Assembly: GCA_029862745.1 (NCBI GenBank)
Contig: JAOTWS010000005.1
Coordinates: 1-64,000, forward strand
Length of the DNA: 64,000 nt
Direction of reading: 5' to 3'
DNA from: Nitrosopumilus sp.
GTDB taxonomy: Archaea > Thermoproteota > Nitrososphaeria > Nitrososphaerales > Nitrosopumilaceae
This document shows positions 25,810 to 61,052 of this stretch, in pieces. Position 1 is the stretch's first letter. Each line of letters opens with the position of its first letter. The notes under the pieces are model-generated. The model did not search any database, was not told the DNA's origin, and was given only the letters and a program-made list of their open reading frames with translations. A program made the position numbers and the translations under genes.

Positions 25810-27441
25810 TTGAATATTAAAAATATCGAAAGTTCATTTCGTCCAACTTTGGATAAAAAATGCGCTGTTGCAAAAAAAGGGATGGTTGCATCTGCATTTC
25901 CTGATGCTACTAAAGCAGGAGTAGAAATACTCAAAAAAGGTGGTAATGCTATAGATGCAGCTTGTGCAACTGCATTGGCCTTAGGAGTATGTGAACCACA
26001 AGCATCTGGACTTGGAGGACAATCTATGGCAATTATTCATGTTGATGGTAAATCATATGCAATTGATGGTTCTAGTCGTTCACCATCATTAGCCAACTCG
26101 TCAATTTATTCCAATAAGAAAAATCGTCATCTTGGGTATAGATCTACTACCATTCCTAGTACTTTGGCATTAATTGGATTCTTACATGAAAGATATGGTA
26201 GAACAAAATGGCAAAATATAGTTGCACCATCAATACGTATTGCAAGAAAAGGATACAAGATAACTCAGCTTCAGCACAGTTTACAAGAAAGAGAACTTGA
26301 AAGCTTTCTATCCATAAAATCTAAATCTGGTGCAAAATATTTCTTAAAAGATGGATTAGTTCCATATGATGTAGGTGATAAATTCATTCAAGAGGACCTA
26401 TCTGAAACACTTACTGCAATTTCTGACTATGGATATCGTGTTTTCTATCAAGGAGAAATAGCCAAAAAAATTGCTCAAGACATGAAAAAAAATCGTGGGT
26501 TGATTCAAGAAGAAGATTTAGCATATATTCCTGAGCCTCTTATTCGAAAACCAATTAGTAGAAAATATCGACATGTTACTGTGGTAACGTTGCCTCCGCC
26601 AGCTGCTGGAAGAACCTTACTGCTTACTCTGATGATGTTAAATCATTTACCTTCCAAGTTTTTACGTAGTGCAAAACCTAGCTCATTTCATTTTGTTGCA
26701 GAGACATTTAGAAAGGCATTCTTGCACAGAATGCAAAGACCATTCAATCGTCATACATATGATCAAATTCAAGATAAACTACATCTTCAAAGATCATTTG
26801 CAAAACAAATGGCTGACTCCATTCATAACTCTATGGACACTACATTGCCTATGATTGATCCTGCCTTTGGAGGTGAAGATACCACCCATCTTTCAACAAT
26901 TGATGATGAAGGAAATGCTGTAGGTATTACTCAGTCAATAGAGCTTGCATATGGTTCAAAAACTGCTGCAGATGGACTAGGCTTTCTTTACAATAACTAC
27001 ATGTCTGCATTTGAATTCACAAATCCTAATCACCCATACTATATACGACCGAATTCTATTCCTTGGACTTCAGTTTCACCTGCTTTAATTTTTAATAATT
27101 CTAAACTTTGGATGGTGGTTGGAAGTCCTGGTAGTCAGAGGATATTTTCTACAATCACTCAATTCTTATCAAGAATAATTGATGGCGACTTGCCAATGAG
27201 TGAGGCAATCAAAAGACCCAGATTCCATTGTTCTATTGGTGGCATTGTTAGTATCGAAGATGGTGGATTCAGAAATGAAGTAGTTGACTTTCTCAAAGAA
27301 ATAGGATATAAAATTTCTGTAAAAGAAAGATATTCATTTTATCATGGAGCAATTCATGCAGTGATGAAATTGCAAACTCAATCTGGTTATCACGGTGTAG
27401 CTGAAGTAAGACGTGATGGAACAGCGGAAGGATTGAATTGA
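25810..27441 (+). CDS. ggt: Gamma-glutamyltransferase-like enzyme (intact copy)
   Basis: Ntn-hydrolase that cleaves or transfers gamma-glutamyl (or related acyl) groups. 543 residues. [20 protein letters not shown] then [20 protein letters not shown] and SGLGGQSMAI form the large-subunit start. EDTTHLSTIDDEGNAVGITQ contains the self-cleavage threonine, about Thr358, the nucleophile of the mature small subunit. No signal peptide is visible, so a cytoplasmic enzyme is expected, unlike bacterial periplasmic GGT. Start is TTG at 25810, matching the second copy at 41431. An N-formylglutamate amidohydrolase-like gene overlaps its end. Confidence 0.88.
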   Translation: MNIKNIESSFRPTLDKKCAVAKKGMVASAFPDATKAGVEILKKGGNAIDAACATALALGVCEPQASGLGGQSMAIIHVDGKSYAIDGSSRSPSLANSSIYSNKKNRHLGYRSTTIPSTLALIGFLHERYGRTKWQNIVAPSIRIARKGYKITQLQHSLQERELESFLSIKSKSGAKYFLKDGLVPYDVGDKFIQEDLSETLTAISDYGYRVFYQGEIAKKIAQDMKKNRGLIQEEDLAYIPEPLIRKPISRKYRHVTVVTLPPPAAGRTLLLTLMMLNHLPSKFLRSAKPSSFHFVAETFRKAFLHRMQRPFNRHTYDQIQDKLHLQRSFAKQMADSIHNSMDTTLPMIDPAFGGEDTTHLSTIDDEGNAVGITQSIELAYGSKTAADGLGFLYNNYMSAFEFTNPNHPYYIRPNSIPWTSVSPALIFNNSKLWMVVGSPGSQRIFSTITQFLSRIIDGDLPMSEAIKRPRFHCSIGGIVSIEDGGFRNEVVDFLKEIGYKISVKERYSFYHGAIHAVMKLQTQSGYHGVAEVRRDGTAEGLN

Positions 27442-28208
27442 GTCCACTTCCGGTATTACTCTCAATTCCTCATGGTGGAATAAAAAAACCTGTGGAACTT
27501 GATGGCCATCTGTGTATTTCAGACAAAGACTTGTTTGATGATTCAGATCCATTTGTTATGGAACTTTATGATTTAGGAGATAAAGTTCAACGTGTAATTA
27601 AAACTGACATTGCTAGAGCCTTTGTTGATCTTAATCGTTCATTACAAGAACTTCCTCCTGTGAATCCTGACGGTTTAATTAAAAGCGCTACTTGTTATGA
27701 CAAACCTATCTATTCTAAAGGTAGAGAACCAGATGATTCTCTTAGAACTTTATTAATTCAATTATACTATCTTCCATATCATAATGCAATTCAAAAAAGT
27801 ATTGAAGAGTTGGATCTACAATTATGTCTTGACTGTCATTCAATGGCTTCAATTGCACCCAGTATTTCTCCTGATGGAAACAAAAAACCAAGACCAAAAT
27901 TTTGTCTGTCAAATAATGATGGACAAACATCTTCCCAAGAGATGATTGAATTACTTGCATCTTGTATCTCTAAATCTTTTGAGATTGATAAAAATGAAAT
28001 TTTACTTAATAATCCATTTCATGGAGGACATATCACTAAAACATACGGAAATAAGCCATTTCCTTGGATTCAAATTGAAATGAACAGAGATTTGTATTTA
28101 TCTGAGCCTTGGTTTGATATGAACTTGCTTTCTGTTGATCCTAAACACCTTCATAAATTAAATAAACAATTTGAAGATTGCCTTGATCAATTTTTTTTAA
28201 GACTCTAA
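27438..28208 (+). CDS. N-formylglutamate amidohydrolase family protein
   Basis: 256 residues. VLLSIPHGGIKKP is the family opening; TDIARAFVDLNRS and LCLDCHSMAS supply the conserved acidic/histidine residues; HGGHITKTYGNKPFPWIQIE is the C-terminal signature. The family hydrolyses N-formyl or N-acyl glutamate-type amides. The TTG start overlaps the GGT stop by 4 bp, so the two are translationally coupled and probably act on the same glutamyl-type substrate (inference). Confidence 0.82.
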   Translation: MSPLPVLLSIPHGGIKKPVELDGHLCISDKDLFDDSDPFVMELYDLGDKVQRVIKTDIARAFVDLNRSLQELPPVNPDGLIKSATCYDKPIYSKGREPDDSLRTLLIQLYYLPYHNAIQKSIEELDLQLCLDCHSMASIAPSISPDGNKKPRPKFCLSNNDGQTSSQEMIELLASCISKSFEIDKNEILLNNPFHGGHITKTYGNKPFPWIQIEMNRDLYLSEPWFDMNLLSVDPKHLHKLNKQFEDCLDQFFLRL

Positions 28209-33729: not shown

Positions 33730-34605
33730 ATGTCCTTAAATTTTAGTTTAAATATCAGTATACACAGTAAGTGCATCTTGAAGGTTTCAGTTGAGTATGA
33801 TGTAAGTTATTCTTATGATAATTTAGTAACTGTAAATGATAATGTCTTACGAGTATTCCCTTCAACAGAATTTTGGCAAAAACCAATTGATGAACAAGTA
33901 TCTATACAACCAAATGGAAAAACTATTTACTACACGGATCGATTTGGAAATAAAAATGCAAGAATAAAGATAACTGAACCTCACTATGCATGTTGCTATA
34001 AAGTAATATCTACAGTTGAGACAAATCCATACAATGTTACTGTAAATGACAATCTCGATCTACCTCTGGATAAATCTCTTTTTCCATCTGATGTTAGAAT
34101 CTATCTAAATCCTTCAACACTTATCAATCCAGAACTTATAAGACACAGAGCTCCTGACGTTTTAGATCATGTCAAGACTTTAAAAGATGCGTTGATAATT
34201 TTAACAGAATGGGTCACAACCAATATTGAATATGTTCCATTGTCTACTACAATTGAAACTAAAGCCAGAGAGTCTTTGGCTTTAGGTGTGGGTGTATGTC
34301 AAGATAAAGCACATATTCTAATTGGATTCTTACGCTCCATTGGAATTCCTGCACGATACGTCAGTGGAATTTTAGTAGATACTCCTGGAGCAACACATGC
34401 ATGGACAGAAGCTTATTGGCCAAATATTGGTTGGATTCCATTAGATCCAACACATAATAGATCTTTTGATTTAGAATATCACTATGTAAAATATGGCCAT
34501 GGGAGAGATTATAACGACGTAGCACCAATTACAGGTTATTTTGAATCTGACAGCTCACATAGTCTTACTCAGTTAAATGTAATTCCAACAATTATTCAAA
34601 AATAA
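33730..34605 (+). CDS. Transglutaminase-like cysteine protease family protein
   Basis: 291 residues. N-terminal beta domain, then the papain-like triad: Cys190 in GVGVCQDKAH, His223 in GATHAWTEAYW and Asp239 in PLDPTHNR. All catalytic residues are present. Members of this COG1305 type accompany alpha-E and circularly permuted ATP-grasp genes in many bacteria. Here it is the first gene of that trio, with alpha-E 79 bp downstream. Likely hydrolyses or transfers an amide bond made by the ATP-grasp partner (inference from context). Confidence 0.85.
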   Translation: MSLNFSLNISIHSKCILKVSVEYDVSYSYDNLVTVNDNVLRVFPSTEFWQKPIDEQVSIQPNGKTIYYTDRFGNKNARIKITEPHYACCYKVISTVETNPYNVTVNDNLDLPLDKSLFPSDVRIYLNPSTLINPELIRHRAPDVLDHVKTLKDALIILTEWVTTNIEYVPLSTTIETKARESLALGVGVCQDKAHILIGFLRSIGIPARYVSGILVDTPGATHAWTEAYWPNIGWIPLDPTHNRSFDLEYHYVKYGHGRDYNDVAPITGYFESDSSHSLTQLNVIPTIIQK

Positions 34606-34684
34606 TAACTCTTACAATATGTTAGTTTAATAGTATAGATGAGTTACTGTTGATATTCTGGATAATAAAATAAACAAAAAGGAT

Positions 34685-35155
34685 TTGATTCTTCCAAGTA
34701 AACTATACAAAGCATATTGGTTAGGACGCTATGTTGAAAGAGTAGATAGTGTATCAAGAGCATTACTTAGTGCTCTTTATTCATTAAAGAATCTTCAAAG
34801 TGAGGAACCTTTAATGTCTCTTGCAGATAGTTTAGGAATAAAATTTACCAAACATGAAAAATTTCTTGAGGAAATCTTACATGGAGATATACCATCAAGT
34901 ATTCTTTACTCCGTGAGAAATATGAGAACTAATGCAATAGGACTGGGAGTTGAACGAATAGTACGAGAATCAAACATTCTAGTTATAGCAGTAGAAGAAA
35001 GACCAAACTTACAAAAGATAGATGAAGTGATTAAACATGCAAATGATGTAATTGCAGCAATTAATAATATTGGTAGAGTAATTAATGAAGAAATTGCACC
35101 TCCTCATATTTCTGAAGAAAAAAGGCAAAATCAAACTCGTCATCAACAACAGTGA
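34685..35155 (+). CDS. Alpha-E domain protein (DUF403)
   Basis: 156 residues. LPSKLYKAYWLGRYVERVDSVS is the conserved opening of the alpha-E helical domain, and ILYSVRNMRTNAIGLGVE is the second hallmark. The usual full-length protein is around 300 residues, so this is a compact version of the N-terminal part. Start is TTG at 34685. Its stop overlaps the GTG of the ATP-grasp gene by 3 bp, indicating translational coupling. Probably a subunit or regulator of the ligase. Confidence 0.78.
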   Translation: MILPSKLYKAYWLGRYVERVDSVSRALLSALYSLKNLQSEEPLMSLADSLGIKFTKHEKFLEEILHGDIPSSILYSVRNMRTNAIGLGVERIVRESNILVIAVEERPNLQKIDEVIKHANDVIAAINNIGRVINEEIAPPHISEEKRQNQTRHQQQ

Positions 35156-36579
35156 ATATAATGCATATTGACTCTCTTCCATCACAATCAATTGATTTTT
35201 CAAAAACTGAGAGTTATAACGAAGCAATAGATAATAATTTGTTGATACGAAAGGAATACGTACAATTTTTTAAAAATATTCAAAATCCTCGATTATTTCG
35301 ATTGCGTGAAAAGGCCATGTCTGCAGATCTTACAGCGTATTTGGAGGGATTCACATACAATGTAAAATCAGATGAATATAATGCAGTTCCAATGGATTTT
35401 GTTCCTCGAATAATATCTTCCGATAATTTTCAAATAATTGAAGATGGAATCAAACAACGAGCAAAAACGTTAAACATGTTTCTAAAAGATGTGTACAGTG
35501 AGGTAAAAACAATTGTTCCTGATGAATTAGTTGTAGGTTCAGAATATTTTAACCCTGATCTAATTGGGCATTTGCCAAAAAATGATATTTTCATTCAAGT
35601 TTATGGAGCAGATCTTCTATACAATGGAAAAACGTATTATGTAATTGAGGATAATTTACGAGTTCCAAGTGGAGTTACCTATCCTTCAAAAATTCGTGAA
35701 ATGAGCGATGGATATCTAAATGTTTTGAAAAAAGGGTATAAACTTCAACCATACAAACCATGGACATTTCTATACCAGGCTATGAAAGATGCATCATGGA
35801 CAAAAAATCCTTTCATGGTATTACTTACAGATGGAACTGGAGGTGCTGCATACTTTGAGCATATGTATCTTTCAAAATTAATAGGAATCCCACTAGTAGA
35901 AGCTGGTGATATCTATGTAACAGATTCTGGACATATCGTAGCAAAGATCCCTGGTGAAGGCGAAATCCAAATTGATGTCATTTATAGAAGAGTTGAAGAT
36001 TTGGATGTGTTTGTACCAGGACTTACAAAAGCATACATTGATGGAAAAGTTGCATTAGTCAACTCACCTGGAACTGGAGTTGCAGACGACAAACTAGTGT
36101 ATTCTTATGTTCCTGAATTAATACGCCATTATCTTTCTGAAGAACCAATTTTAGAGCAACCAAAATCCTACAATCCAACCATTCCTGAAGAATTAGAAAG
36201 TGCACTTCAAAATATAGAAAATCTTGTAGTAAAAGAAAGGGGAGGATATGGTGGAATGGGAACTGTAATACCACGTGATCATCCAAAATCTAAAAGAGGA
36301 CCTCTGATTGAAAAAATACAACAAGAGATTACTGAAAACCCAGATAATTATCTTCTACAAGAAACATTGGATTTTTCCACCACCATTACCAGAGAATCAT
36401 TTAGTCCTTTAATCTTACGAGATTCATATGTTGATCTTAGAGTGTTTTCATATTATGCAGAGGATGGTCCACATGTTCCACCTGGTGGATTATCTAGATT
36501 TGCAAGGCATGGAAGAATAACAAATAATTCTTCAGGTGGAGGAGTTAAAGATACTTGGATTGTTAATTTAGATGGATAA
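35152..36579 (+). CDS. Circularly permuted ATP-grasp amidoligase (COG2308 type)
   Basis: 475 residues. KSDEYNAVPMDFVPRIISSD then FIQVYGADLL and YVIEDNLRVPSGVTYP are signatures of the DUF404/407 permuted ATP-grasp family. VVKERGGYGGMGTVIPRDH is the glycine-rich ATP loop, and LRDSYVDLRVFSYY and GGLSRFARHG complete the fold. The family is predicted to make amide or peptide bonds (Iyer and Aravind's amidoligase survey), but no substrate is known. Transcribed with the transglutaminase and alpha-E genes. Confidence 0.88.
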   Translation: MNIMHIDSLPSQSIDFSKTESYNEAIDNNLLIRKEYVQFFKNIQNPRLFRLREKAMSADLTAYLEGFTYNVKSDEYNAVPMDFVPRIISSDNFQIIEDGIKQRAKTLNMFLKDVYSEVKTIVPDELVVGSEYFNPDLIGHLPKNDIFIQVYGADLLYNGKTYYVIEDNLRVPSGVTYPSKIREMSDGYLNVLKKGYKLQPYKPWTFLYQAMKDASWTKNPFMVLLTDGTGGAAYFEHMYLSKLIGIPLVEAGDIYVTDSGHIVAKIPGEGEIQIDVIYRRVEDLDVFVPGLTKAYIDGKVALVNSPGTGVADDKLVYSYVPELIRHYLSEEPILEQPKSYNPTIPEELESALQNIENLVVKERGGYGGMGTVIPRDHPKSKRGPLIEKIQQEITENPDNYLLQETLDFSTTITRESFSPLILRDSYVDLRVFSYYAEDGPHVPPGGLSRFARHGRITNNSSGGGVKDTWIVNLDG

Positions 36580-36635: not shown

Positions 36636-36895
36636 ATGGCAACTGGTTCAACTAAAGCAGTTTATGCTGCGCTTTTTGGAAATCTAGGAATTGCAGTTAC
36701 AAAGTTTATTGCAGCTGCAATGAATGGAAGTGCCTCTATGTGGGCAGAATCACATGTCATTCTGTATCCGATACAGTAAACCAAATTCTATTGTTATTGG
36801 GTATAAAATTAAGCACAAGACCTGCAAATGAGTTACACCAATTTGGATTTGGAAAACCACAGTTTTTCTGGTTATTTATTCTGGCAATCATGTGA
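36636..36895 (+). pseudogene. Cation diffusion facilitator fragment, frameshifted
   Basis: ATG 36636 begins MATGSTKAVYAALFGNLGIA and reaches WAESH, the first membrane helix of a CDF metal transporter. After a one-base shift near 36755 the sequence continues as CHSVSDTVNQILLLLGIKLS and QFGFGKPQFFW, the second helix with its metal-site HxxxD pattern. It stops at 36893. A full CDF has about 300 residues, so the gene is frameshifted and truncated after about 85. Confidence 0.75.
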
Positions 36896-37075
36896 TAAAG
36901 AAAGAAATTATGACTATCATACCTAATTCAAAAAAAGAGTATATTTTTGTATAAGTTCAACGATAAAAAATAAAATTATTATAAAAATTAGTAATTATCA
37001 ATAACAAAAATAACTCTAAACAAAAAAGATATCAAAAAACTTTAAAAATCATTAATTGTAATGAAATTTTGAATT

Positions 37076-38965: not shown

Positions 38966-41140
38966 TTGAAGGTTGCTTTAATTTACAATGAAAATAAGAT
39001 CGATCCTAATGATGTAATCAATATATTTGGAATGACTACAAAAGAGCATTATAGTAAAAAGGCTGTTGAAAAAGTTGCTCAATCGTTAGAAAAGGGGGGA
39101 CATACAGTCAAGATAGTGGAGGGTGATATTCATCTGGCAGATGAACTAAAAGAATTTATGCCTAAAGTGGTTGCAGGAGAATCCCCTGGAATGGTATTCA
39201 ATATGGCGTATGGTATACAGGGGCAGAATCGTTACACCCATGTTCCTGCAATGATGGAAATGTTAGGTATTCCATACATTGGATCAGGACCTGCAGGACA
39301 CGCAATAGTTCAAGATAAGGTTATGACAAAAATTGTCTTACAAAAAAATAAAATCCCAACTCCTGGATTTTGGGTATTTCGAACGCCTGAGGATATTCAT
39401 GATGATCTAATTTTCCCAGTAATTGTCAAGCCAAAACTGGAATCCACATCCATGGGAATGGAGGTAGTAAATAACTGGGATGATCTGAGAAATGCAGTAA
39501 GGGTGCAGATTGAAAAGTTCCAACAAGAAATATTGGTGGAACAGTTCATATCGGGGCGAGAATTTGCTGTAGGTCTATTAGGTAATAATCCCAACATCGA
39601 AGTTCTTCCAATTGTTGAAATTAATCTAGGTGATCCAGATCAAATACAAACAATAGATGATAAAAAGAAAAAAGGTGGAGTTGATAAAACATGTCCTGCT
39701 AAATTATCAAAAGAAAAAAAAGAAGAAATGCGTCAAATGTGCATAAAGGCATTCAATTCTTTAGGACTAAACGATTACACTAGGGTTGACTTTAGAATGG
39801 ACAAAGATGAACATCTTTACATTCTTGAATTAAACTCCATGGCAAGTTTGGGTGCTGGTGGTTCTTTGTTTTATGCAGCACAAACTGCAGGATACACCTA
39901 CGAATCTTTGATTAATAAAATCCTGGACGTGGCTGCAATTAGATACTTTGGTTCTTCAATACAGCAACCTGAACAAGATGTTAATTTGACTCAACCATTG
40001 CGTGTTGTTACTAGATCTTATCTTAGAGGACACTTGCAAAACCTAAAGGAAACATTAAGAGATTTTGTGAATCTTAATACCCATGTGTATAACTTAGAAC
40101 ATGTAAATCAGCTTGGAATTATACTTTCTAAACGATTAAAATATCTTGGATTTGATGAACAGGTTCATCGAGAAATTGATGTGGGTGATTTTCATTATTT
40201 TAAAAATCATACAGAATCACAAAATGATGTATTGATAGTTTCTCACCTTGATACACATTATGGCCCAGATGATTTGATAACTTATCATGAAGTTGATGAT
40301 CAAATTTTAGGTTCAGGTATAGCTGAAAGTAAAGGGGGATTAGTAGTTATGTTAGGTGCATTACATGCACTACGATTTGCAAAAAAACTTAAAAAAATTA
40401 AATGCGCCGTACTGTTGACAACGGATGATAGTTTAGGAGGCCGCTATAGTAGGAGATTAGTTAATGAATATTCAAAAAAATCAAAGTATATTATTGGATT
40501 AAAATCTGGAAGTAAAGATGGTGGAATTATTACAACTTGTTATGGCAGAAGTGACTATCAAATTCGATTTACTACAACCAATAGTCAATCTGATTTAGAC
40601 TCTGATATCCATGGAATAATCCCAGTTTTGGCAAAGAAACTACATGTACTTGATAGGCTTTCAAAAAATGAAGAAAATTTTAGATTGAGAACCACTTCTG
40701 TTATAGCAAAAGGTTCTCATGGTAACACTCCAAACTATGCTACATTATCTTTGACATGTAGCTATCAAACAGAAGATCTTGGTCAAACTCTTGATTCAAA
40801 AATTCAAACTATTATGAAAAAAAGAGAAGAAGATTCAAAAAAACTAGATGTTGCAATAAATAAAATTCAATCAAGACCTCCTGTATTAGAAGAGTCATCT
40901 GATACTGAATTCTATAACATGGTAGAAGATCTTGCCAAAAAACACGATATGAAAATCAAAAAACATTGTCAAATTGTATCATCAGATATTAGTAACGTTC
41001 CAACCAACCTTCCAGCTTTGGATGGGTTTGGACCATTAGGACACCGCTATCGTTCTACTAAAGAGTATATTCTTCATGATAGTATTTTAGATCGGGCTGC
41101 ATTATTGGCATCAGTTCTGTATAAATGCTCTGAGAAATAA
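38966..41140 (+). CDS. D-Ala-D-Ala-ligase-like ATP-grasp fused to M20-like peptidase domain
   Basis: 724 residues. Residues 1-330 form a Ddl-type ATP-grasp: GIPYIGSGPAGHAIVQDKVM, FPVIVKPKLESTSMGM, ILVEQFISGREFAVGLL and LYILELNSMASLGAGGS. Residues 380-720 are M20-like: SHLDTHYGPDD (His427, Asp429), GSGIAESKGGLVVM (Asp to Glu454), TTDDSLGGRYS (Asp-Asp instead of Glu-Glu) and ALDGFGPLGHRYRSTKEYI at the end. Several metal ligands differ, so the second half may bind the product rather than cut it. A ligase joined to a hydrolase-like domain suggests an amide-linked product with editing or processing. TTG start. Confidence 0.82.
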   Translation: MKVALIYNENKIDPNDVINIFGMTTKEHYSKKAVEKVAQSLEKGGHTVKIVEGDIHLADELKEFMPKVVAGESPGMVFNMAYGIQGQNRYTHVPAMMEMLGIPYIGSGPAGHAIVQDKVMTKIVLQKNKIPTPGFWVFRTPEDIHDDLIFPVIVKPKLESTSMGMEVVNNWDDLRNAVRVQIEKFQQEILVEQFISGREFAVGLLGNNPNIEVLPIVEINLGDPDQIQTIDDKKKKGGVDKTCPAKLSKEKKEEMRQMCIKAFNSLGLNDYTRVDFRMDKDEHLYILELNSMASLGAGGSLFYAAQTAGYTYESLINKILDVAAIRYFGSSIQQPEQDVNLTQPLRVVTRSYLRGHLQNLKETLRDFVNLNTHVYNLEHVNQLGIILSKRLKYLGFDEQVHREIDVGDFHYFKNHTESQNDVLIVSHLDTHYGPDDLITYHEVDDQILGSGIAESKGGLVVMLGALHALRFAKKLKKIKCAVLLTTDDSLGGRYSRRLVNEYSKKSKYIIGLKSGSKDGGIITTCYGRSDYQIRFTTTNSQSDLDSDIHGIIPVLAKKLHVLDRLSKNEENFRLRTTSVIAKGSHGNTPNYATLSLTCSYQTEDLGQTLDSKIQTIMKKREEDSKKLDVAINKIQSRPPVLEESSDTEFYNMVEDLAKKHDMKIKKHCQIVSSDISNVPTNLPALDGFGPLGHRYRSTKEYILHDSILDRAALLASVLYKCSEK

Positions 41141-41209
41141 TTTTGATTTTTAATGCAACATAGATGTCACAAATTAAAAAAATTCTTACTGGGAGGTGAA
41201 ATCAACATA

Positions 41210-41440
41210 TTGAAATTAATTCAAGATAAATTCAAAAATGATTCTAATATCAATATTGGTCTGGTAAATCTAGATATCTATTTTCTTTATACTCCTATAC
41301 TACCACAAGTTTCTTCAGGATTGATACATCCTAACTACATCACAATCCCAACATGTAAGATATGCAAACAAGAAGAATATCACTATGCAGTGATATTCTA
41401 CTCAATCAACAAAAACTGGAGTGATTTTATTTGGATCTAG
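41210..41440 (+). CDS. Hypothetical protein upstream of second GGT
   Basis: 76 residues from TTG 41210, chosen because GGAGGTG stands 11 bp upstream (41192-41198), one of the clearest ribosome-binding sites in the window. An ATG at 41153 gives 95 residues. [11 protein letters not shown] may bind metal. It overlaps the GGT pseudogene start by 10 bp. Its product is unrecognised. Confidence 0.45.
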
Positions 41441-43059
41441 AAAGAATTGAATCATCGTTTACTGTAACTAATGATCAAAAATGCTCGGCAGCTAAACATG
41501 GGATGGTTTCAACTGCATTTCCTGATGCTACAAAAGCTGGAGTTGAAATGTTAAAAAGAGGGGGTAATGCTATTGATGCTGCCTGTGCAGCAGCCATTAC
41601 ACTTGGTGTATGTGAACCTCAATCATCTGGACTAGGATGACAATCACTAGCAATGTTACACATTAATGGAAAAACAATTGCTTTGGATGGCTCAAGTCGT
41701 GCACTATCTCTTGCACATGCATCCTTTTTTGAAAAACGTTCTACAAGATTCGTAGGTTACAAAGCTACTACTGTTCCAAGTACTCCAGCTATTATAGGCT
41801 ATCTCAATAAACACTATGGGAAACTAGATTGGGCAACCATAATTGAACCTGCAATTAGAATTGCAAAAAGGGGTTATAGAATAACGCAATTACAGCATGA
41901 TATTCAAACTAAAAACCTACAAAAATTTTTCCGCGTAAAATCTAAATCTGGAGCTAGATATTTTCTCAAAAATGGTCTTGTACCATATGATGTAGGAGAT
42001 TTATTTGTACAAGAAGATTTAGCAGAACTTCTAAAATACATAAGTGAACATGGTTATCAAACCTTCTATCATGGTATGATTGCTAAAAAAATTAATGATG
42101 ATATGCGAATTAATGAAGGATTTTTACATTCAGATGATCTTGCATTAATTCCTGAACCCATAGAAAGAAAACCAATTAAAAGATCATACCGTGGAATTCA
42201 AATTGTCACTATGCCTCCACCTACTGCGGGCAGAACCCTACTTTTGGTTTTAATGATGCTAAATAATGTTTCATCAGAATTTATTCGAAGTAAAGATCCA
42301 AGATCGTATCATTTTGTTGCTGAGACTTTTAGAAAAGCACTAGCTCATAGATCCCAAAGACCCTATGATCCAAACACATATCATCAAACCCGAGATACAA
42401 CACATCTTAGTACAAAATTTGCAAAAACACTTGCGGGCTCCATTAGAAATATTGTTGATCCTAAACTTCCTCTACAAGAATATTCTGAAGATCCTGATGA
42501 AACAACACATCTTTCAGTTATGGATGATGAAGGAAATGCCATTGGAATTACTCAATCCATAGAACTATCATACGGTTCTAAAGCTGCCGCCGATGGGTTA
42601 GGATTTCTGTATAATAATTACATGTAATGTTATGAATTTAACAATCCAAACCATCCATTTTATCTTAGACCCAATGCTTCACCATGGACCTCTGTGTGTC
42701 CAACTATAGTTAATTATAAAGATAAACCTTTAATGATACTTGGAAGCCCTGGCAGCTCAAGAATTTTTTCGACTGTTAGTCTGTTTCTTTCAAGAATTAT
42801 TGATGGACAAAATTCAATTGATCAAGCTATGCTAAAACCTAGAATTCATTGCTCAATGGATGGTATTATTAGTATTGAAGAAGGTTTTGCTGATGACAAA
42901 ATTGCACCATACTTAGAAAACCTTGGTTATAAAATTGATATTAGAAAACGCTATTCATTTTTTCTTGGAGCAATTCATGCTGTATTGAAATGTCAAACAG
43001 GTCAAGGATTTCAGGGGATTGCAGAGATCAGACGAGATGGAAGTGCAGAAGGGATCTAA
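41431..43059 (+). pseudogene. Second gamma-glutamyltransferase-like gene, two nonsense codons
   Basis: Closely similar to the intact copy at 25810 throughout ([40 protein letters not shown] with the catalytic threonine). A single reading frame runs 543 codons but is cut by TGA at 41638-41640 (SGLG, stop, QSLAM; Gly in the paralogue) and TAA at 42625-42627 (NNYM, stop, CYEF; Ser in the paralogue). There are no frameshifts and residues are otherwise well kept, so inactivation is recent. TTG start at 41431, same position as in the paralogue. Confidence 0.85.
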
Positions 43060-60329: not shown

Positions 60330-61052
60330 CTATTGTGCAAACTTTGATGCGTTTTGAGAATATTTTTGTAAATCAGACTCTAAAACTTTTTCAAAAACTT
60401 TTTCTTTAGATGTAATTTTTGCCATCTTTATGTGATTGATTCCTTCTTTTACTTCTGCTTTGAGGTTAATTGCTGCTATTGCCAACGATGCAGCATCATC
60501 TAAACTCATATTGACATTGTAATGTTTTTCCAAAAATTCATTGACCTCATCAGAGCCTGCACCGATTGCAACTGCTGCAAATTGTACATAAGTTCCACTA
60601 GGATCAGTCACATAGATTGATTCTCCCTTTTGATCAATCCCTGCAATAATCATGGAGACTCCATTTGGACGCACTCCTCCATATTGTGTGAATTGGTGTG
60701 CTTGGTCTGCCAAGTACTTTGCAACTGCTGCAACTTCTACAGATTCATCATAAGTCATTCTGTTACCTTGTGAAAAGAATCTTGCATTATCCACTTGAAC
60801 ACGTGCATCTGGAATGTATCCTGCAGCTGCAACTCCTATATGATAATCAACTTGGAAAATTTTTTGTGTGATATTGGCGGTTTGTAGTATTCTGGGCTTC
60901 TCTTCTACTGCCATGATTACTCCCTCCTTACTTAAAACCCCAATAGCCAAAGCACCTCTCTTTACGGTCTCTATTGCATACTCTACTTGGTAGATTCTAC
61001 CATCTGGAGAATACATAGTAGGCGTCATATCATAACCACGTGATGCCATCAT
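60330..61052 (-). CDS. psmA: Proteasome subunit alpha
   Basis: 240 residues. GYDMTPTMYSPDGRIYQVEY is the family N-terminus with the alpha-ring helix, followed by AIETVKRGALAIGV and DDAASLAIAAIN. No catalytic threonine, as expected for alpha. It forms the outer rings of the 20S core and docks ATPases. The first one or two Met codons are alternative starts (61052 or 61049). Confidence 0.94.
   Translation of the reverse strand: MMASRGYDMTPTMYSPDGRIYQVEYAIETVKRGALAIGVLSKEGVIMAVEEKPRILQTANITQKIFQVDYHIGVAAAGYIPDARVQVDNARFFSQGNRMTYDESVEVAAVAKYLADQAHQFTQYGGVRPNGVSMIIAGIDQKGESIYVTDPSGTYVQFAAVAIGAGSDEVNEFLEKHYNVNMSLDDAASLAIAAINLKAEVKEGINHIKMAKITSKEKVFEKVLESDLQKYSQNASKFAQ

Follow-up and report, generated by a model that had tools for sequence, protein, structure and literature searches.

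The window, a stretch of 64,000 nucleotides, stems from a Nitrosopumilus genome which also encodes archaeal AmoA, and the host is therefore an ammonia oxidiser. Three adjacent genes were found on the forward strand at the positions given in the original prediction. The first (33730..34605) encodes a transglutaminase-like protein (TG), the second (34685..35155) an alpha-E protein of 156 residues comprising a single unit, and the third (35152..36579) a circularly permuted ATP-grasp amide ligase of the COG2308 type. The last 20 residues of alpha-E ahead of the stop codon form a Gln-rich C-terminal tail (35093..35152, same strand). The profiles named for the trio, i.e. PF01841, alpha-E and CP_ATPgrasp_2, all found their targets: TG matched Bact_transglu_N (PF08379, 45.9 bits) and Transglut_core (PF01841, 78.5 bits), alpha-E matched PF04168 above the cut-off (37.3 bits, model positions 9-91 of 294), and the ligase matched PF14403 (CP_ATPgrasp_2) and PF04174 (CP_ATPgrasp_1) with 303 and 243 bits, respectively. 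Among solved structures, TG is closest to 3isr and the ATP-grasp protein to 3n6x (E 2.7e-75); a search of the alpha-E profile against solved structures gave no convincing match. The TG triad, which had been described as intact, consists of C190, H223 and D239 and is invariant in 12 archaeal homologues. The same holds for the ATP-grasp residues E166-D167-N168, K361, G365-G368, Q403-E404 and N458-N459 in 12 archaeal homologues, in line with the assignment to COG2308.

The predicted overlap of the alpha-E and ATP-grasp genes in GTGA is present, with the caveat that an alternative ATG start for the ATP-grasp gene lies at 35161. Translation of alpha-E would begin at the TTG at 34685 or at a CTG ten codons upstream (34655), and the gene contains no ATG at all. 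All four alpha-E genes of the genus have a TTG or CTG start instead of ATG, which is unusual for the middle gene of an operon. Pairwise comparison of the four genomes with intact copies yielded dN/dS values of 0 to 0.15 for all three genes, with dS saturated in some pairs. The trio is thus under strong purifying selection and maintained as functional. None of the three proteins matched the anti-phage defence models of PADLOC. A phage or plasmid origin was considered and rejected, as the search for one yielded only homologues of bacterial type with less than 39% identity.

As had been noted, alpha-E has about half the usual size: among 80 fetched loci, bacterial forms are nearly all 283-352 residues long. 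When the N- and C-terminal halves of 63 bacterial alpha-E proteins were compared by HHalign, they matched with a probability of 99.4 (E 1e-21), so bacterial alpha-E arose by tandem duplication. The archaeal protein aligned with the bacterial N half (E 1e-16) as well as with the C half (1e-13), spanning one complete unit, and in a relative from a Desulfurococcales MAG (L043) the match runs as far as position 291 of 294, where the Pfam model ends. The tandem feature of alpha-E in Anbu operons is absent here, where only a single unit is present. In a tree of 62 alpha-E rows, the N units, the C units and the short forms separated into three clans (support 92/78, 100/99 and 98/92, respectively). 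By sequence, archaeal alpha-E, as sampled outside the haloarchaea, constitutes a clan of its own, which is common to several Thermoproteota families and one Dehalococcoidia bacterium. Truncation or frameshift was rejected as the origin of the short protein, because four genomes of the genus and three further lineages have proteins of similar length and the unit is complete. Hence, of the earlier idea of a reduced archaeal form, the half size stands as an archaeal trait, whereas a recent truncation or reduction is not supported, given the complete unit, the separate clan and the presence in Dehalococcoidia. Since the tree is unrooted, the short alpha-E may be either the form that preceded the duplication or the product of an ancient loss. 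Acinetobacter likewise has alpha-E proteins of 200-217 residues, in Anbu-bearing operons (8251-8904 in L077, 8507-9109 in L084), which represent a separate shortening of the two-unit form.

The AF2 model depicts alpha-E as a helix bundle (pLDDT 91.5), of which the last 20 residues are of low confidence (pLDDT about 62-68); the model thus shows the Gln-rich tail as disordered. Foldseek returned no match to this model at E <= 0.001, and VIA-align Z scores of up to 12.9 are within the range of unrelated helix bundles. Thus, the predicted fold appears to be a generic helix bundle without a specific structural relative.

An intact ATP-grasp gene is present in four of 95 genomes of the host genus (G000, G105, G324, G326), and degraded copies were detected in G238, G324 and G326. 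Among 300 genomes of the order, one more family outside the genus carries the gene (G052, 42% identity), and 15 of 398 genomes of the phylum, 13 of them from family f35, encode the short alpha-E. Close relatives were also found in the Desulfurococcales MAG L043 (55% identity) and in a Dehalococcoidia MAG (L044, 42%). All loci with a short alpha-E group in one clan with a support of 100 in the ATP-grasp tree and in the TG tree, and the subclades {host genus + L043}, {f35} and {G052 + L044} recur in the ATP-grasp, TG and alpha-E trees. This congruence of the three parts, which had been named as support for a transferred operon, indicates that one operon type moved as a unit, and the trio is thus a single inherited or transferred entity. 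Gene order, a further point of comparison with the bacterial Anbu operon, is TG-alphaE-ATPgrasp in the host genus and ATPgrasp-TG-alphaE in f35, G052 and L044. Across the genus, linkage is patchy and the trio is not general; four intact cases stand beside degraded copies in three genomes.

The trio had also been described as sitting among amide-chemistry genes. This is true of its location: an intact gamma-glutamyltranspeptidase (GGT) gene (25810-27441) and a gene for an N-formylglutamate amidohydrolase family protein (FGase; 27438-28208) form a module upstream (25810..28208), and a D-Ala-D-Ala-ligase-like ATP-grasp domain fused to an M20 peptidase (Ddl-M20) is encoded at 38966..41140, all on the forward strand. 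Ddl-M20 and FGase occur in 39 and 36 of the 95 genomes of the genus, respectively, and in nearly the same ones. All four trio genomes possess Ddl-M20 (hypergeometric p = 0.026), and no more than a few kb separate the ATP-grasp gene from Ddl-M20, NDH2 or GGT in the window, in G105 and, as a remnant, in G238 and G324. The linkage is thus real, but the module is also present in genomes lacking the trio. About 40% of the genus has these neighbours as a separate module, to which the trio is occasionally added. A second GGT copy (41431..43059, forward strand) is open except for two in-frame stop codons, TGA at 41638 and TAA at 42625; its counterpart in L032 is intact and continuous, and the copy is therefore probably a recent pseudogene. 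Two short remnants were also seen, one of a cation-efflux-like protein (36636-36910, identified by eye only) and one of an NDH2-like oxidoreductase (41153-41440). The surroundings of the trio have the appearance of an island undergoing decay and rearrangement. Genes for ion transport (Na/H exchanger, MscS, K channel, CNNM, CorA) recur beside the trio (L031, L007, L008 and, in the window, 32012 and 37719), and a link to ionic stress is possible.

The presence of the trio in only four of 95 genomes, the degraded ATP-grasp copies in three genomes and the nearby pseudogenes could mean that it is merely a transferred accessory island of little importance that is being lost from the genus. We regard this as very unlikely, because all four intact copies have low dN/dS values and the catalytic residues as well as those of the tail are retained.

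Archaeal alpha-E proteins, whose Gln-rich tail the original prediction did not mention, end with QTRHQQQ, LLHQQQ, YVQQE or KQEEI(K/R)(T/S)Q, and the protein of L044 with FVQQQQQQQQQSAPQAAGE, in each case directly ahead of the stop codon. The four genomes of the genus with an intact trio all retain the QTRHQQQ terminus, whereas the preceding linker is variable. We scored a Gln tail when at least three Gln were present within the last 10 residues. This applied to 0.9% of 1160 background proteins, 53% of short alpha-E, 44% of TG, 1% of ATP-grasp and 7% of Anbu proteins; Gln was the last residue in 5%, 53%, 48%, 6% and 11%, respectively. Among 52 bacterial loci, the tail resides on TG only in 31, on alpha-E only in six and on both in two, and 13 loci, including those of Paenibacillus and Acinetobacter, have none. 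Following dereplication at 70%, 13 of 32 adjacent TG proteins carried the tail (binomial about 4e-19, which is an overstatement because related genomes share ancestry and the counts are not independent). The alpha-E tails of f35 mostly contain one to three Gln in the last 18 residues and are not unusual when taken singly. Fused ATP-grasp/alpha-E paralogues lack the tail altogether, so together with the 13 tailless loci they indicate that the rule is not universal. Large TG paralogues of about 1100 residues (L064, L066, L071, L078, L106, L108, L113, L117) also have no Gln tail; common to them is a P.TLDLR motif near the C-terminus. CAA and CAG codons are mixed inside the tails, which are therefore not a simple DNA repeat. 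The tail is not forced by gene overlap either, as alpha-E of L031 ends with TAG, without a GTGA overlap, and yet has QQQQQ.

Two natural experiments separate the tail from its potential partners. In eight Dehalococcoidia genomes (L182-L187, L190, L191), the operon encodes ATP-grasp, a two-unit alpha-E and Anbu but no TG, and the tail, rich in QxQ, is located on alpha-E. Searching these genomes with the TG profile revealed no operon-type TG; the sole hit was a weak one (E 3e-5 to 2e-4), to a protein encoded elsewhere that is about 960 residues or more in length. Genome G725, which has TG, carries the tail on TG and none on alpha-E. Conversely, Anbu is absent from the archaeal loci, in which TG is present. 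Proteasome-family genes of the host genome lie outside the trio (one of four was typed): the gene at 60330-61052, 24 kb away, was considered as an archaeal Anbu and rejected, as it carries the N-terminal signature of an ordinary alpha subunit. Thus, neither TG nor Anbu is required for the tail. Its constant partners are ATP-grasp and alpha-E, which points to the ligase as the enzyme that the tail most likely serves.

Earlier descriptions of the operon system are those of Valas and Bourne 2008 and of Iyer et al. 2009, as cited in PMC5666114, a paper which also notes that archaea have it only sparsely. The searched passages of open Anbu papers do not mention the Gln tail, and a one-unit alpha-E clan, a congruent transfer unit and a tail that changes its carrier were not found described in the searched text; Iyer et al. 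2009 lay outside this search. The bacterial Anbu operon resembles the archaeal loci in the adjacency of the same three families, in the C-H-D triad of TG and in one component with a Gln-rich C-terminal tail. It differs in that the archaeal loci lack Anbu and have a one-unit instead of a two-unit alpha-E, and in that the tail is on alpha-E in archaea but usually on TG in bacteria. The Dehalococcoidia operons share the Gln-rich tail on alpha-E and an ATP-grasp gene beside it, but have a two-unit alpha-E and Anbu, and no operon-type TG in the genome.

Tentatively, we propose that the trio is a Thermoproteota-type Anbu-operon peptide-ligase system, in which the tail would be the protein substrate of the ligase and TG and Anbu would act in editing. 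Read from sequence, this is a plausible assignment, albeit one we hold short of probable. Alpha-E, or TG in many bacteria, would be the protein substrate or carrier. The ATP-grasp enzyme would use ATP to activate a carboxylate of the tail as acyl phosphate, either the terminal alpha-carboxylate or a gamma-carboxylate generated by deamidation of Gln, and would then couple it with an amine or amino acid. The C-H-D enzyme may deamidate, trim or transfer at the tail, and Anbu in bacteria may take off what the ligase has added. The setting of the system would likely be nitrogen limitation. In PMC6376114, the ATP-grasp homologue of Y. bercovieri is reported to release phosphate from ATP, without stimulation by Gln or Glu, and no complex among the operon proteins was obtained with Anbu as bait. 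The B. cenocepacia cluster belongs to the NtrC/sigma54 regulon (PMC5491218), and the Pfam families of the system co-vary with urea metabolism in marine metagenomes (PMC3597751).

The tail could instead be a docking element rather than a substrate. One such reading assumes a free small amide or peptide as product, alpha-E as structural or regulatory partner and the tail as a docking or solubility element without chemistry of its own. The ATP-grasp relative 3n6x is annotated as putative glutathionylspermidine synthase, some operons lack the tail, and the prevailing prediction, from Iyer et al. 2009 as cited in PMC5666114 and PMC3597751, is a role in peptide synthesis or modification. We nevertheless consider a small product somewhat unlikely, as no transporter or further tailoring gene was seen travelling with the trio in the archaeal loci, and this reading leaves the recurrence of Gln, including Gln as the final residue, across distant lineages to be explained. 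The tail may also be an acyl-donor substrate of TG, in which case alpha-E would undergo deamidation or cross-linking to amines or proteins, and ATP-grasp would make a separate amine substrate. Gln side chains are the established site of transglutaminase action, and the archaeal genes for TG and for the Gln-tailed protein are direct neighbours. However, Dehalococcoidia operons and genomes that lack an operon-type TG still have the tail, and in most bacteria TG itself bears it, which makes this the less likely of these two alternatives.

Returning to the tail as a substrate of the ligase, known systems offer analogies. In the Pup-proteasome system, the small protein Pup ends with GGQ or GGE, and Dop and PafA carry out a deamidation and a ligation step. 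The likeness, by analogy only, lies in a Gln-ended protein, in deamidation and ligation, and in the proteasome relative of the bacterial version; the enzyme folds are unrelated, alpha-E is a folded bundle unlike Pup, and any conjugation to proteins would be hypothetical here. RimK, tubulin-tyrosine-ligase and LysW/ArgX are cases in which an ATP-grasp enzyme adds a residue at the C-terminal tail of a protein; they, too, are comparable only by analogy, being members of other, not circularly permuted ATP-grasp families. It is conceivable, though on balance rather doubtful, that the whole operon family, widespread in bacteria and found in some archaea, is a protein-tagging or tail-extension system with Pup-like logic, in which the Gln-ended tail of alpha-E or TG would be the ATP-grasp acceptor. 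Anbu would then act as its proteasome-like partner in bacteria, and the archaeal version would be one-unit and Anbu-free.

The Anbu-operon system is widespread among bacteria, at least one of which induces it on nitrogen starvation, and includes a relative of the proteasome. The recurrent Gln tail, kept without TG and without Anbu, would provide a concrete candidate substrate, and the archaeal form, with its one-unit alpha-E and no Anbu, would be the smallest version of the system.
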